DNA of 64,000 nt from Ereboglobus sp. (GTDB lineage Bacteria; Verrucomicrobiota; Verrucomicrobiia; Opitutales; Opitutaceae), in NCBI GenBank assembly GCA_029974595.1, contig JARKRC010000047.1, forward strand, positions 1 through 64,000, given 5' to 3'. Shown piece after piece: positions 29,013 to 33,669 of the stretch. The translations under genes were made by a program, and so were the position numbers. The notes beneath the pieces are model-generated. The model did no database searches. It was not told the origin of the DNA and worked only from the letters and a program-made list of their open reading frames with translations. Each line of letters starts with the position of its first letter. Within the stretch, counting starts at the first letter, position 1.

Positions 29013-29089
29013 GATGCGGGGGAAATGCCGGCACATCGCGCGTCGCGAAAACACCGGCTGGGCGAAGGGATGATTCAGGGGATGTGACC

Positions 29090-29290
29090 TGAAGATTACC
29101 CGCAAGTTGGCGCGAGACAGCGAATGCCTTTCGTAGCGCAGGCTTCCAGCCTGCATTCCGGAAGCAGGCTGGAAGCCTGCGCTACGGCGCTGTCGCGACA
29201 AACTCGACGGCTGCGACGGTTGCGTCCTTTTCCGTGCTTCCGTGTTTCCGTGATTTATAAAAACACAAGCGGGATTGCGGCATTGCGCGG
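29090..29290. repeat. Copy A of a ~200 bp inverted repeat flanking the integron
   Basis: The sequence TGAAGATTACCCGCAAGTTGG, then GCGAGACAGCGAATGCCTTT, a GCAGGCTTCCAGCCTGC palindrome pair, a TTTCCGTG-type run and CACAAGCGG...CATTGCGCG is repeated in opposite orientation at 33456-33655 with about 90% identity by eye. The two copies bracket the cassette array and the recombinase remnant. Confidence 0.85.
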
Positions 29291-29298
29291 AAAGAGGC

Positions 29299-29375
29299 TC
29301 ACGCAACGAGGCGGCGACGCAACGGGAGCTGCCGCTCCGCTGTGTTTTTCGTTGCGCCGTGGCATCGTTGCGTGA
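29299..29375. repeat. Long hairpin between the repeat and the cassette array
   Basis: TCACGCAACGA at the left pairs exactly with TCGTTGCGTGA at the right. The inner part (GGCGGCGACGCAACG against CGTTGCGCCGTGGC) continues the stem with mismatches. No coding potential is seen in 29013-29541, which holds only this hairpin, repeat copy A and the terminal attC. Confidence 0.65.
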
Positions 29376-29479
29376 ACCCGGTTTGATCGCAATGCGCAAC
29401 ATGACAGTCCGAGCCTACTGCGTTTGCCCGTGGATTGCGACTCTGCTGCTCATGTTACCTCGAGTCGTTGCTGTTTTTT

Positions 29480-29539
29480 AGCTAACGTCAAGGGTCAGGC
29501 ATCGGCGGAACACCGGTTGCCTGCCCCCGCTTGTTCTAT
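29480..29539 (-). other. attC site, distal end of minus-strand cassette array
   Basis: Read on the minus strand: left core ATAGAAC (29533-29539), a stem GGCAGGC...GCCTGAC, and CTTGACGTTAGCT with right core GTTAGCT (29480-29486). At 60 bp it is the shortest of the four minus-strand sites. It lies 2 bp beyond the stop codon of the NADAR gene. Confidence 0.7.
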
Positions 29540-29541
29540 GT

Positions 29542-30102
29542 TTATTGGGATAGGCGATGCCGAACCTCCATCAGAGCGAATCCCAGAAGATTTGATCCGT
29601 TCCATAGATTTGGTTTTGTTGCGCGATCATCATCCAAGGCCATTCCAATACCCCAGATTCTATCGTGAGGGCTGGCCTCTACAAGAACCTTGGAACCTGT
29701 GGCTATGAGAAACCTTTTCATTGGTTCGTGCTGAGAGAACTTGGCCACGTTGCCGCGAACGACAATATCGAACCTCTTGCCGACCCATATGGCTTCGTCA
29801 AAACCGGTCACTTTTCGTCCAAGGGCTTTTGCTGCTCCGGGGCTTCCTGCGGAAAGAATCTGATTATGAATACTTGAATCCCCAAATAAACGGGCCTTTT
29901 CTGCCATCATAAAGTGCTCTGTCGTTGGATACTGGACCCCATCAACGACAAACTTGGAAGAAAACCAATTGCTGAGACAGCTCTGGTCAATTCGATCGGG
30001 AACGCGAGAGCGGTGTCCCCAGAAAAATTGATACTTGGGACGCAATCCGCTCGCCACTAACCGGGCCAACTCTTCAACCGTTCGCGCATCTTGCGGTTTC
30101 AT
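29542..30102 (-). CDS. NADAR-family protein (YbiA-like), integron cassette gene
   Basis: 186 residues from the ATG at 30102 (MKPQDARTVEELARL), 8 bp after the upstream attC core. Hallmarks of the NADAR/YbiA fold are FFWGHRSR, CLSNWFSSKFVVDGVQYPTTEHFMM, KARLFGD, a long AKALGRKV helix and the end IWGIGMALDD with NLWNGSNLLGFALM. Family members cleave N-glycosidic bonds. YbiA acts on riboflavin precursors, while other NADAR proteins remove ADP-ribose from guanine in DNA and act as antitoxins or in phage defence. No DarT-type toxin is adjacent. The stop lies just before its own attC. Confidence 0.85.
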   Translation of the reverse strand: MKPQDARTVEELARLVASGLRPKYQFFWGHRSRVPDRIDQSCLSNWFSSKFVVDGVQYPTTEHFMMAEKARLFGDSSIHNQILSAGSPGAAKALGRKVTGFDEAIWVGKRFDIVVRGNVAKFSQHEPMKRFLIATGSKVLVEASPHDRIWGIGMALDDDRATKPNLWNGSNLLGFALMEVRHRLSQ

Positions 30103-30110
30103 GTTTCGTC

Positions 30111-30221
30111 GTAGAACGTCAAAGATCAGGCACGGAGGTAGCTGGCGCGGCGCGTGCTGGTGCGAATCGCCAAGCACGAGTCGCGCCAGCTACCGGAGTT
30201 GCCTGCATCGCTTGGTTCGGC
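30111..30221 (-). other. attC site of the endonuclease-like cassette
   Basis: On the minus strand: left core GCCGAAC (30215-30221), then CAAGCGATGCAGGC, a long stem of TAGCTGGCGCG and CGCGCCAGCTA, then GCCTGATCTTTGACGTTCTAC with right core GTTCTAC (30111-30117). It is 111 bp long. The upstream gene's reading frame runs through nearly all of it. Confidence 0.8.
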
Positions 30222-31930
30222 TCCTTCTTGGTTTTTCGCTTGGCGTGCTCGGCAATCTCAAGTGCGCGCGTGGGGATGTGTTCATCAAATCGCACGTAAA
30301 CTAGCTCAACGCCGTTACTGCTACAAAGGTGTTGCTTCCGTCGATCTCGGACCTGCACATCATCGAACCCAGCCTTCCCGCCGAAGAAGTCGATTGGACG
30401 ATAATGTTGCTCGCCCATGAACTCAACTGCTATTGAGACGTCGGGGATATAGATGTCCAGATGCTGAGGCTCGATCCAAACTGGTCTGGCGTGCTGTTCG
30501 ACCGTAAACGGCTTCAAATGCCTGCGCAGAAGCTGAAAAAGCTGATTCTCGGAGACCCACTGAGTCCTTCCGATCTCCTTGTCCCAAATTCGACGCAACC
30601 AGTGAGCTGCCTGATCTAAAAGCTCTTTCCACTCGGTCATGTCCCGAGGTGTCTGTGGCCGCTGAGTCGAAGTGCTGCCAAAGGGATGACTAATGCCAAC
30701 TGCGGCTCCATCTCTCCATGTATTCGCTACCTGCTTCGCAGACACGACGGACGCACTCCGAATCCAGTCATCGAGACGGAGTTCAGCCCAATCGCGGAAT
30801 TGGGCGAGCTTCTTGAAATCGAAATCGTCCCGACTGGTGGATGGTCTGAGCACCTCTTTGATCGAAGCCATTTTCTGAAAAAGTCCCGTGACAATATCGC
30901 TGCCGGTCAAATCGAAGCCGTGCTCAAACTTCAGTTGCAAGAGGCGTCCAAAGTGTCGCTTATTCATGATTGGATGGGAACTGTAGAGGCGAATCAGTCG
31001 ATCCGGAGGCGCAGACGCCGGGGAGAAGCTGTCATGGCCCATTGCTGCGAATAGCATTGAATGGCTTACAGAAGTAACGCCTGAACCAGTCACAAGGTCG
31101 ATAAAGTCAATCAAGTTTCGCTCCTCGCCCTTATGCCCAAAGCTCACAAGATGCTCTTGGGCAGCATCCACAACCTCATCACCTCGCTTAAGGTAGTTGA
31201 GCACGTGCTCGGCTCGCGGAGTTGCGCCGCTAGAGCGAGCACGTTCGACCGTTGTGGGTGGTCGCTCGCCAAAGCGCGGCGGGCAGCGCCGCTTGATTCT
31301 CTCGATCATCTTCTTCTGTCCATAGTCGCCATCTGAAACGAAATCTCCCCAATCCTGCGCGGAAAGACCAAACGCTTCTTTCAGATCGCGAAGAACGTTC
31401 GCCGACGGTTCGGTGCCTAAGGCAATCTGAGCTACCGCCAACATCTCCAGAAAGGGCTTTCCGGATACGCAGCTTCGACCACAGCAGACCTGACCATTTG
31501 AAAAACCAGAAGCAAATCCTGTCTCGATGAATCGGTCGATCACGGTGGCCCAGTCCTCCTGAACGAATGCCAGCCGAATCAACCGATCATAGTCGGGCTC
31601 AGTTCGATACGATTGCGTTCCGTTGGCTGTGGTCTTGTAGTGGTTCTCGGCGGCGGCTAAATCCCCCAAAATCCATGCCAAATCTCCAAGTTTTCGATGG
31701 TGACGGTTCGACTCGTAGTATTCTTGAGCCTTCTCGAAGCATCCGCATGCCATGTAAGTATCGGTGAGGTAGCCAGCATGACACTTCTGCTCACTCCCTA
31801 GTGCAATATAAAGTCTCTCAAATGGATTCAATTCGTGGTCTGGCGTCATGGCGATGATGTCGTATACCAAGCTCTCCACAATCGAATAGCTGGGCATCAC
31901 GATTTCATTTTCTCCGTGCCAGATTTTCAT
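30119..31930 (-). CDS. Large cassette protein with C-terminal restriction-endonuclease-like domain
   Basis: 603 residues from the ATG at 31930 (MKIWHGENEIV), 7 bp after the attC core. The N-terminal ~300 residues are helical with TPR-like spacing (CFEKAQEYYES, KLGDLAWILGDLAAAENHY). Near the C-terminus (~500-575) a PD-(D/E)xK/Vsr-like pattern appears: LDIYIPDVSIAVEFMGEQHY followed by DRRKQHLCSSNGVELVYVRFDE. This resembles endonuclease-fold domains that end with a short strand and Lys/Arg-rich helix. Nuclease activity is inferred only. The last ~33 residues (KEPNQAMQATPVAGAT and on) are encoded by the attC. Composition is AT-richer than core genes. A defence role is plausible. Confidence 0.6.
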   Translation of the reverse strand: MKIWHGENEIVMPSYSIVESLVYDIIAMTPDHELNPFERLYIALGSEQKCHAGYLTDTYMACGCFEKAQEYYESNRHHRKLGDLAWILGDLAAAENHYKTTANGTQSYRTEPDYDRLIRLAFVQEDWATVIDRFIETGFASGFSNGQVCCGRSCVSGKPFLEMLAVAQIALGTEPSANVLRDLKEAFGLSAQDWGDFVSDGDYGQKKMIERIKRRCPPRFGERPPTTVERARSSGATPRAEHVLNYLKRGDEVVDAAQEHLVSFGHKGEERNLIDFIDLVTGSGVTSVSHSMLFAAMGHDSFSPASAPPDRLIRLYSSHPIMNKRHFGRLLQLKFEHGFDLTGSDIVTGLFQKMASIKEVLRPSTSRDDFDFKKLAQFRDWAELRLDDWIRSASVVSAKQVANTWRDGAAVGISHPFGSTSTQRPQTPRDMTEWKELLDQAAHWLRRIWDKEIGRTQWVSENQLFQLLRRHLKPFTVEQHARPVWIEPQHLDIYIPDVSIAVEFMGEQHYRPIDFFGGKAGFDDVQVRDRRKQHLCSSNGVELVYVRFDEHIPTRALEIAEHAKRKTKKEPNQAMQATPVAGATRAWRFAPARAAPATSVPDL

Positions 31931-31936
31931 TTTTTT

Positions 31937-32041
31937 GCCGAACGTCAAAGATCAGCCACGCGACCAGCGAGCAACGCCCGTTGGAGCGTTCCCGGAAAAG
32001 GACGGAGCAGCAACCGCGTTGGCTGTAGCGCCTGGTTCGGC
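31937..32041 (-). other. attC site of the membrane-protein cassette
   Basis: On the minus strand: left core GCCGAAC (32035-32041), CAGGCGCTACAGCC, variable centre, GGCTGATCTTTGACGTTCGGC with right core GTTCGGC (31937-31943). The cores are exact reverse complements. Length 105 bp. Confidence 0.85.
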
Positions 32042-32045
32042 TCTT

Positions 32046-32430
32046 TCATGGGTAAACGGCAGTAAATAACGCAACGAACGCTACGGCGAGAGGCACGCCA
32101 GCGGCATTGAAGTAGAGCGATCGCATGCGTCGCAATAATCTTAGCTCGAGCGCGCCAAAGAGAAGTGAGCCGCCAAGGATTAGCGCGGCGATGCCGGGCC
32201 CGTGTAGCTCCGCGGTAAGCATCACGAATGCTGCATAGGCTGCTAGGAGAGCGTAGAGCGCCGCGCAGACCCAAAGCGCTACTTTCTTCTTCCACGCACA
32301 TACCCATGATATACGAATCATCTGAGGTGATCCGCGCGCCGCTCCACAGCATGTAAGCGACTGTCGTAGCCGTTGCGGTAATCCCGAAGGTCGCGACGGA
32401 TCTCAAGAGGTCTTCTCCGATGCGCTTCAT
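32046..32430 (-). CDS. Small membrane protein, cassette gene, probably frameshifted
   Basis: An ATG at 32430 follows the upstream attC core by five bases, the normal cassette start. It reads MKRIGEDLLRSVATF with one transmembrane helix (to AYMLW), then becomes Arg-rich and improbable after ~45 residues. A second frame (32321 to 32046) gives MIRISWVCAWKKK and three more hydrophobic segments, ending LFTAVYP with its stop just before the attC. The simplest reading is one four-helix membrane protein broken by a single-base shift near 32310. Two overlapping small genes are the alternative. If the first frame is not broken, it reads on to 31945 with an attC-encoded EPNQALQPTR tail. Confidence 0.45.
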
Positions 32431-32435
32431 ATTCT

Positions 32436-32505
32436 GCCGAACGTTTGCGGTCAGACACGGAGGGGAGCGCAGCTCCCCGGAGTTGTCTGTGCCGCCTGGT
32501 TGGCC
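32436..32505 (-). other. attC site of the first (attI-proximal) cassette
   Basis: On the minus strand: left core GGCCAAC (32499-32505), CAGGCGGCACAGAC, a GGGGAGC-GCTCCCC stem, GTGTCTGACCGCAAACGTTCGGC with right core GTTCGGC (32436-32442). Length 70 bp. Confidence 0.8.
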
Positions 32506-32981
32506 TCTTTCTTCCAGACGCCCTGTGAATAGTGAAAATACGGCGAGTGCTTCTTGGGATCGCCGGCCTTGATAGCATCTATGGTCTTCGTCACTTCGGC
32601 AGAATGCTTCGAACCGAGAAGACTTTCGAGGAGCGGCAAGACACTGGCATCCTGCCAAAAGGCGAGGCCGAACAAGGCGCAGCCTGCCGTGTCGACGGAA
32701 CGATCCGATGCATACTGGCAATAAATCGGGAACGCTTCGGGTAATCTTCTGCCTTGGCTTAATAGCAGGTTTAGAGCCCGAACCTTTCCATCGCGCGTCG
32801 TGATCTTCTTCTCTTGGAGCGCACGAATCACCAAATCATATCGTCCGTGCCGGCCCAACGCCTCCCAAGCGGTGTCGCCAAGTTTTCTGCTCGATCCGGC
32901 AAGGACATCAACGAGCTCTTCGTCCGATTTGTCGGCGAGCAGCGTGGCCGCCTCCTGATAGCTTAGGGTTCGCAGGTTCAT
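32451..32981 (-). CDS. HEAT-like hypothetical protein, first integron cassette gene
   Basis: 176 residues from the ATG at 32981 (MNLRTLSYQEAATLL). A TTG four codons upstream lies in the recombination core and is discarded. The protein is a string of short helices with HEAT-repeat-like spacing: DEELVDVLAGSSRKLGDTAWEALGRHG, VRALNLLLSQGRRLPEAF, AGCALFGLAFWQDASVLPLLESLLG. No family or function is recognised. The final ~20 residues (KEANQAAQTTPG and on) come from its attC. As the first cassette it would be the one best expressed from an integron promoter. Confidence 0.55.
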   Translation of the reverse strand: MNLRTLSYQEAATLLADKSDEELVDVLAGSSRKLGDTAWEALGRHGRYDLVIRALQEKKITTRDGKVRALNLLLSQGRRLPEAFPIYCQYASDRSVDTAGCALFGLAFWQDASVLPLLESLLGSKHSAEVTKTIDAIKAGDPKKHSPYFHYSQGVWKKEANQAAQTTPGSCAPLRV

Positions 32982-32987
32982 CTTTTC

Positions 32988-33146
32988 GGCCAACAGTATT
33001 ATTGAGAGGAACTGGGAGTTCCGGTTTTGATGGTTGTGATTATTGACTGGGTTCTCAATGGTGAGTTTTTAGAAATGATTGTTTGAAAGAGTATAATGAA
33101 AATTTCAGCTTGAATTTTTCTGGTTTCGTTGCGCCATTTTGACCTT
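32988..33146 (-). promoter_or_regulatory. attI-like core and integron leader/promoter region
   Basis: A core-like GTTGGCC (minus strand, 32988-32994) precedes the first cassette start by 6 bp. Beyond it, 32995-33146 is strikingly AT-rich for this window and separates the cassettes from a divergent recombinase remnant, the place where attI, the cassette promoter and the intI promoter sit in integrons. On the plus strand GTATAAT near 33090 could serve the recombinase. The exact attI limits cannot be set from sequence alone. Confidence 0.5.
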
Positions 33147-33455
33147 ATGAATGCGGACAATAACGGAACTGAAAAAGCGGAACTGGCGGGAGAGGATAGG
33201 CCGATCTTGTTTTTTAGGTGGAGGGAGTAGTTAGCGAAATTGCGGTGGTCGGACGGAGGGAAGGCGATGCACGAGCGGGTGGGTTTCGGGCTTTTGAAAT
33301 ACTGCAAGGAGAGGGGGCGGGCGGTGAGCATCGCGGTGATACGGGGATATCTGGCGGAGTTGCAGGGACAGGGCAAGCCGATTGAAGAGGTGCGGGGGCG
33401 ACGATGTTTTGTTTCTCACCCCGCGCATCGTGATGCATTCCGACCAAACGGGGTT
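33147..33455 (+). pseudogene. Truncated tyrosine recombinase, probable integron integrase remnant
   Basis: From the ATG at 33147 the frame reads MNADNNGTEKAEL, then DRPILFFRWRE, an amber codon (TAG, 33225-33230 region), then LAKLRWSDGGKAMHERVG, FGLLKYCKERGRAVSIAV and IRGYLAELQGQGKPIEEV before losing sense near the inverted repeat. The helical spacing with a YCK-type helix resembles the SAM-like core-binding domain at the N-terminus of phage and integron integrases. No catalytic domain (R...HxxR...Y) follows. Position and divergent orientation relative to the minus-strand cassettes are exactly those of intI. The family call rests on pattern and context, not on a search. Confidence 0.45.
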
Positions 33456-33655
33456 CGCGCAATGCCGCTTGTGTTTCATAAATCACGGAAACACGGAATC
33501 ACGGAAAAGGACGCAAAGGACGCAGCGGTTGAGTTTGTCGCGTCAGCGCCGTAGCGCAGGCTTCCAGCCTGCTTCCGGCAAGCAGGCTGGAAGCCTGCGC
33601 TACGAAAGGCATTCGCTGTCTCGCGCCAACTTGTGGGTAATCTTCAGGATGTGAC
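33456..33655. repeat. Copy B of the ~200 bp inverted repeat flanking the integron
   Basis: The reverse complement of 29090-29290 with scattered differences, including the GCAGGCTTCCAGCCTGC palindrome pair, the CACGGAAA-type 8-mer run and the ATCTTCAGG end. It begins where the recombinase remnant stops making sense, so its insertion or a recombination event at it may have truncated that gene. Confidence 0.85.
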
Positions 33656-33669
33656 GCCGCAGGGCCGGA

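Follow-up and report, generated by a model that had tools for sequence, protein, structure and literature searches.

Integrons are platforms with which bacteria gather genes one at a time. CALINs are the commonest form in which cassette arrays occur in genomes. Integron mobilisation units have a part of an integron at the centre, a copy of the same short transposable element on either side and a target-site duplication. The term CALIN is used here as in PMC9668308, i.e., for two or more attC less than 4 kb apart with no functional intI; among the origins proposed for such arrays is intI loss (PMC8618304). The array considered below is located in Ereboglobus sp. (Opitutaceae, Verrucomicrobiota), the draft assembly of which comprises 4.07 Mb in 77 contigs and is 96.4% complete; the window, meaning the whole stretch of DNA analysed, covers bases 1-64000 of the 83506-bp contig C22. 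Judging from its sequence, this array is very probably a sedentary chromosomal integron with a dead integrase, that is, a CALIN keeping attI and a stub of intI. With sedentary chromosomal integrons it has in common attI, a divergent intI start, tandem single-gene cassettes of one orientation and homogeneous attC with conserved arms, whereas its intI is cut to 83 codons and carries a stop codon, and the number of cassettes is just four. As in CALINs, two or more attC lie within 4 kb of each other with no functional intI nearby; in contrast to them, attI and the 5′ end of intI are kept, and therefore an origin by intI loss may be read directly. The value of the locus lies in this legibility, attI and the dead intI start being in place and a congener being devoid of the array. 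Since integrons in Verrucomicrobiota are already listed (PMC8618304), the array belongs to a known kind of element and is not a new one.

attC sites and cassettes

The sites were evaluated with two models, both built without the window sequence. R1 is a covariance model derived from 17 attC of other Opitutaceae genera, nearly all taken from stretches around intact intI genes, which were aligned and given a structure; two-sided covariation is observed at 19 pairs of this training alignment, a level attained in 0 of 500 shuffles. The arms profile, trained on relatives, describes the two attC arms only and leaves the length of the central stem free. The following sites were obtained:

32436-32505, minus strand: attC of cassette 1 (R1 E 9.2e-6; arms profile 50.4)
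31937-32041, minus strand: attC of cassette 2 (R1 E 1.9e-12; arms profile 79.0)
30111-30221, minus strand: attC of cassette 3 (R1 E 6.5e-15; arms profile 53.6)
29480-29543, minus strand: attC of cassette 4, its central stem short (arms profile 26.3; missed by R1)

Thus all four minus-strand attC proposed in the first-pass annotation gain support from models that had not included them, the covariance-model search suggested there matching three sites and the arms profile adding the fourth (29480). The latter, with a central stem of only 13 nt, gives no match to R1; its arms score stands against a best value of 18.5 in six shuffles, and the evidence for this site consists of the arms profile and folding. 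Over the 64 kb on both strands the arms profile returned the four sites and one more at 519, with nothing else above threshold. Folding produces the expected stems with the extra base on the bottom strand, and the sites possess R″/R′ boxes with AAC and GTT, complementary L″/L′ arms with one extra base and a foldable single strand, so at the level of sequence their identity as attC is confirmed. No match to the window was given by Rfam at gathering scores, which is uninformative: true attC sites likewise matched no attC family. An explanation of these motifs as REP elements or as palindromes of the ordinary intergenic sort instead of attC, for which the many REP-like palindromes of this genome could be invoked, has a practically negligible probability, given that the sites match models from intI-linked arrays of other genera, that attC asymmetry and cassette-end pairing are both present and that the array begins at a conserved attI.

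Two further attC-like sites, lying right where contig C22 begins, were detected by R1 on the plus strand (519-616 and 972-1069), the second having decayed cores and being absent from the arms-profile matches. The region 519-1069 represents a further piece of cassette, truncated where the contig ends.

The cassettes delimited by the four attC are arranged in tandem with a single gene each:

32442-32993, minus strand: cassette 1, HEAT-repeat-like protein (ATG at 32981; 5′ GTTGGCC versus own R″ GGCCAAC, 7/7)
31943-32441, minus strand: cassette 2, small membrane protein (5′ GTTCGGC versus own R″ GCCGAAC, 7/7)
30117-31942, minus strand: cassette 3, 603-aa protein of no assigned function (ends GTTCGGC/GCCGAAC)
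29486-30116, minus strand: cassette 4, NADAR-domain protein of 186 aa (PF08719 E 9.4e-53; TIGR02464 E 3.6e-50)

The HEAT_2 match of the cassette 1 protein (E 8e-4) falls short of the curated cut-off. Reading frames of cassettes 1 and 3 enter the attC and stop inside it (KEANQAAQTTP and KEPNQAMQATP, respectively), while in cassette 2 a 91-aa ORF (32046-32321) overlaps, in a different frame, a 161-aa ORF starting from 32430. For the cassette 3 protein, Pfam gave no domain over the cut-off and the sole full-length match in 252 Opitutaceae genomes is the protein itself, distant relatives of its C-terminal part being found in three other genomes of the family. A search for defence genes among the cassettes retrieved the NADAR protein only, as a match to the PADLOC candidate model PDC-M42C.

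Because cassettes are circular, the 5′ end of each is expected to pair with the R″ of that same cassette rather than with that of the preceding site. In the window 15 of 16 variable bases are paired in this manner, cassette 4 (5′ GTTCTAC versus own R″ ATAGAAC) reaching 6/7. Over 59 cassettes from this and related genomes, an exact match to the own R″ is found in 44, versus 23 for the same-site comparison (p = 2e-6), and the R″ of the first cassette matches the bases following attI in 8/8 arrays. This bears on the complementarity of GCCGAAC and GTTCGGC cores, previously described as exact in two sites: it is exact within one site only (31937) and does not hold for the second, pairing elsewhere joining the two ends of a cassette. 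Likewise, the context CTGATCTTTGACGTT, thought to be shared by several sites, occurs as an exact copy at 30115 and 31941 only. The spacing of 5-8 bp between cores and start codons proved correct, with distances of 5, 6 and 8 bp after attC cores and 6 bp after the attI core for cassette 1.

attI and the integrase remnant

Two elements absent from the first-pass annotation were recognised in the course of the present analysis:

32992-33022, minus strand: attI, sequence GGAACTCCCAGTTCCTCTCAATAATACTGTT, with the insertion point within GTT at 32994-32992
33147-33395, plus strand: intI remnant, first 83 codons, divergent from attI, with an in-frame TAG at 33228-33230

attI stands upstream of the first cassette, between it and the intI remnant, and exactly matches the motif common to the attI of genomes G075 and G005 and paralogous sites. 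In the intact integrons of these two genomes the motif precedes the first cassette with 1-2 changes outside degenerate positions, attI thus being kept beside intact intI in two other genera; the reversed control pattern had no match in 100 genomes. When a cassette promoter was looked for between intI and attI, no convincing shared match was obtained.

There is no intact integron-integrase gene in cis, its place being taken by the 83-codon remnant. TAG occupies codon 28, similarity ends after codon 83, where the gene is cut off near a dispersed repeat, and no catalytic part follows. The remnant is 51% identical to residues 1-85 of the intact IntI of G075, belonging to another genus, and a profile built from other IntI N-termini detects it at E 9.4e-15; Pfam and NCBIfam leave the stub unrecognised, because this part of IntI lies outside their models. 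The complete counterpart (G075:C1:1294000-1306500) has the same attC arms and an attI core differing in two of 31 bases, whereas its intI is intact and its cassettes number at least 17 against four in the window.

The region to which the remnant corresponds has a peculiarity of its own, as ~100 N-terminal residues of Opitutaceae IntI are absent from the IntI model. AlphaFold2 folds this segment into four confident helices, and in the structural search the first 28 matches were all core-binding domains of tyrosine recombinases (Z 8.6 to 6.5), followed by unrelated chains at Z 5.0; Foldseek alone gave weak matches to those same proteins, and with Pfam one of 15 members matched a SAM-like integrase domain (6.7e-4). 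On the basis of the predicted fold, Opitutaceae IntI probably carry two tandem core-binding-like domains. Of 145 genomes from across the phylum, 12 contain the N-terminal domain. In the literature searched, the one paper naming both integron integrase and N-terminal extension deals with other recombinases.

In the intact state, recognition of the bottom strand of attC in its folded form would have fallen to IntI, read divergently from 33147, and circular cassettes would have been joined at attI with the newest one nearest to it, the four cassettes left being read away from attI. We infer that the integrase gene gained a stop codon and was cut after 83 codons in an event that left the dispersed repeat alongside. 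With intI stopped and truncated, the array would no longer be able to shuffle its own cassettes. Integrase activity carries a cost, and its loss occurs in laboratory evolution (PMC3510236). The cassettes would nevertheless stay recognisable substrates, and IntI given in trans could still move them.

The draft genome yielded neither an IntI over the curated cut-off nor a catalytic domain of the IntI type; TIGR02249 matches below the cut-off belong to Xer-like recombinases. Since the assembly is incomplete and split into contigs, an intact IntI hidden in a gap is possible. Continuing exchange of cassettes through an IntI encoded in trans in such missing DNA would agree with the good preservation of attI and three of four attC, with several attI-bearing arrays in the genome, with units on C22 and C25 that combine the same dead intI with different cassettes, and with the situation in G005, where one intact intI is paired with two attI-bearing arrays of deleted intI. 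We nonetheless regard it as distinctly unlikely, as 96.4% of the genome contains no IntI catalytic domain, the three other genomes of the genus have no IntI over the cut-off, and three intI remnants in addition to that of the window suggest general loss.

Genomic context and the sister locus

The array is flanked by a DUF721 gene and an outer-membrane gene, 4.97 kb apart. In the congener G080 these two genes are separated by ~225 bp with no attC, their products being 90% and 69-83% identical, respectively, to those of the window. Together with the four model-supported sites, the absence of the array from the same place in a related genome substantiates its initial designation as an integron cassette array. 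The search for an empty site in relatives, also suggested earlier, succeeded in part: the same neighbours without the array are there, whereas the exact empty or arrival junction is not visible, intergenic DNA of G080 giving no alignment with the array ends.

The array is bounded by repeated sequences:

29081-29088, plus strand: direct repeat GATGTGAC, left copy (perhaps a target-site duplication)
29089-29394, plus strand: left copy of a dispersed mosaic repeat, forming an inverted pair with the right copy (93-94%)
33467-33648, minus strand: right copy of the dispersed mosaic repeat, adjoining the intI stub (paired part 33474-33648)
33648-33655, plus strand: direct repeat GATGTGAC, right copy (perhaps a target-site duplication)

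Thus, inverted repeats of ~180 bp enclose cassettes, attI and the intI stub, and the 8-bp GATGTGAC is placed directly outside both of them. Matches to the dispersed repeat, complete or partial, number 69 genome-wide. Its interpretation as a simple transposable element was dropped, since individual modules are also found alone and the inner end is not constant. The REP-like palindrome CGTAGCGCAGGCTTCCAGCCTGC is observed in tandem inverted arrangement at 29132-29186 and 33550-33604 and is scattered in the genome.

A sister locus was found on another contig, C25:124445-125116 aligning to 32977-33660 of the window with 88.9% identity over 686 bp. The two loci agree in attI, in the intI stub including its TAG and in the junction with the repeat, but differ in the cassette. 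One dead integrase present at two loci indicates, as far as sequence comparison goes, that the gene was already dead when the unit was copied or converted, and the common stop codon makes such post-death copying of integron platforms in a chromosome testable. Movement as a composite element is possible. For the unit repeat-cassettes-attI-intI stub-repeat to have moved or been copied whole within the genome, in the manner of integron mobilisation units, appears rather unlikely to us, even though it would account for inverted repeats on both sides of a truncated integron, for what may be a short target duplication at their outer ends, for attI, TAG stub and repeat junction recurring on C25 next to another cassette, and for the lack of the entire unit in G080. 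Unlike the short element of integron mobilisation units, the repeat is pieced together from REP-like modules that are scattered singly, with no transposase known to be tied to it; inverted repeats accompanied by the direct repeat are found at one locus only, C25 lacking a matching direct repeat and having a partial left repeat; the direct repeat would arise by chance with a probability of ~0.002; and segmental duplication or gene conversion explains the common stub equally well. A more general scheme would be that in this lineage units of attI, truncated intI start and short variable array multiply intrachromosomally between dispersed repeats, depending now or formerly on in-trans IntI with two tandem core-binding domains, which we consider unlikely. 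The preferred reading remains that of a chromosomal integron the integrase of which has died.

Occurrence in the genome, genus and family

About 20 attC were counted in the genome using R1 and the arms profile, in three places of C22 and on C66, C9, C61, C26, C70 and C45, along with seven attI-like sites; intI remnants outside the window are located at C25:124638 (with the same TAG), C66:28290 and C9:31219. Within the genus attC are found in two of four members, this genome and G080, and IntI over the cut-off in none of the four. Among 100 Opitutaceae genomes 60 contain attC and 35 contain IntI over the curated cut-off, 36 of the 60 attC-bearing ones having no IntI at this level. With integrons this common in the family and already listed for the phylum, the earlier remark that they are little described in Verrucomicrobiota was overstated. 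Their frequency in Opitutaceae opens cassette traffic in insect-gut and soil Verrucomicrobiota to study with a ready attC model.

Some other arrays encountered in the course of this survey can be mentioned. Just past the window, C22:64287-66085 harbours three to four more attC with a GFA-domain gene and small uncharacterised genes, and no attI was found near this group. In G005 two attI-bearing arrays with internally deleted intI (G005:C1:180780 and 7080059) have 2-3 kb of sequence in common, and the same chromosome also holds one intact integron. On C9, a restriction endonuclease domain of DpnII-MboI type (PF18742 E 3.8e-56) is encoded by the cassette at 31342-32275, situated after an attI whose intI stub has 24 codons.
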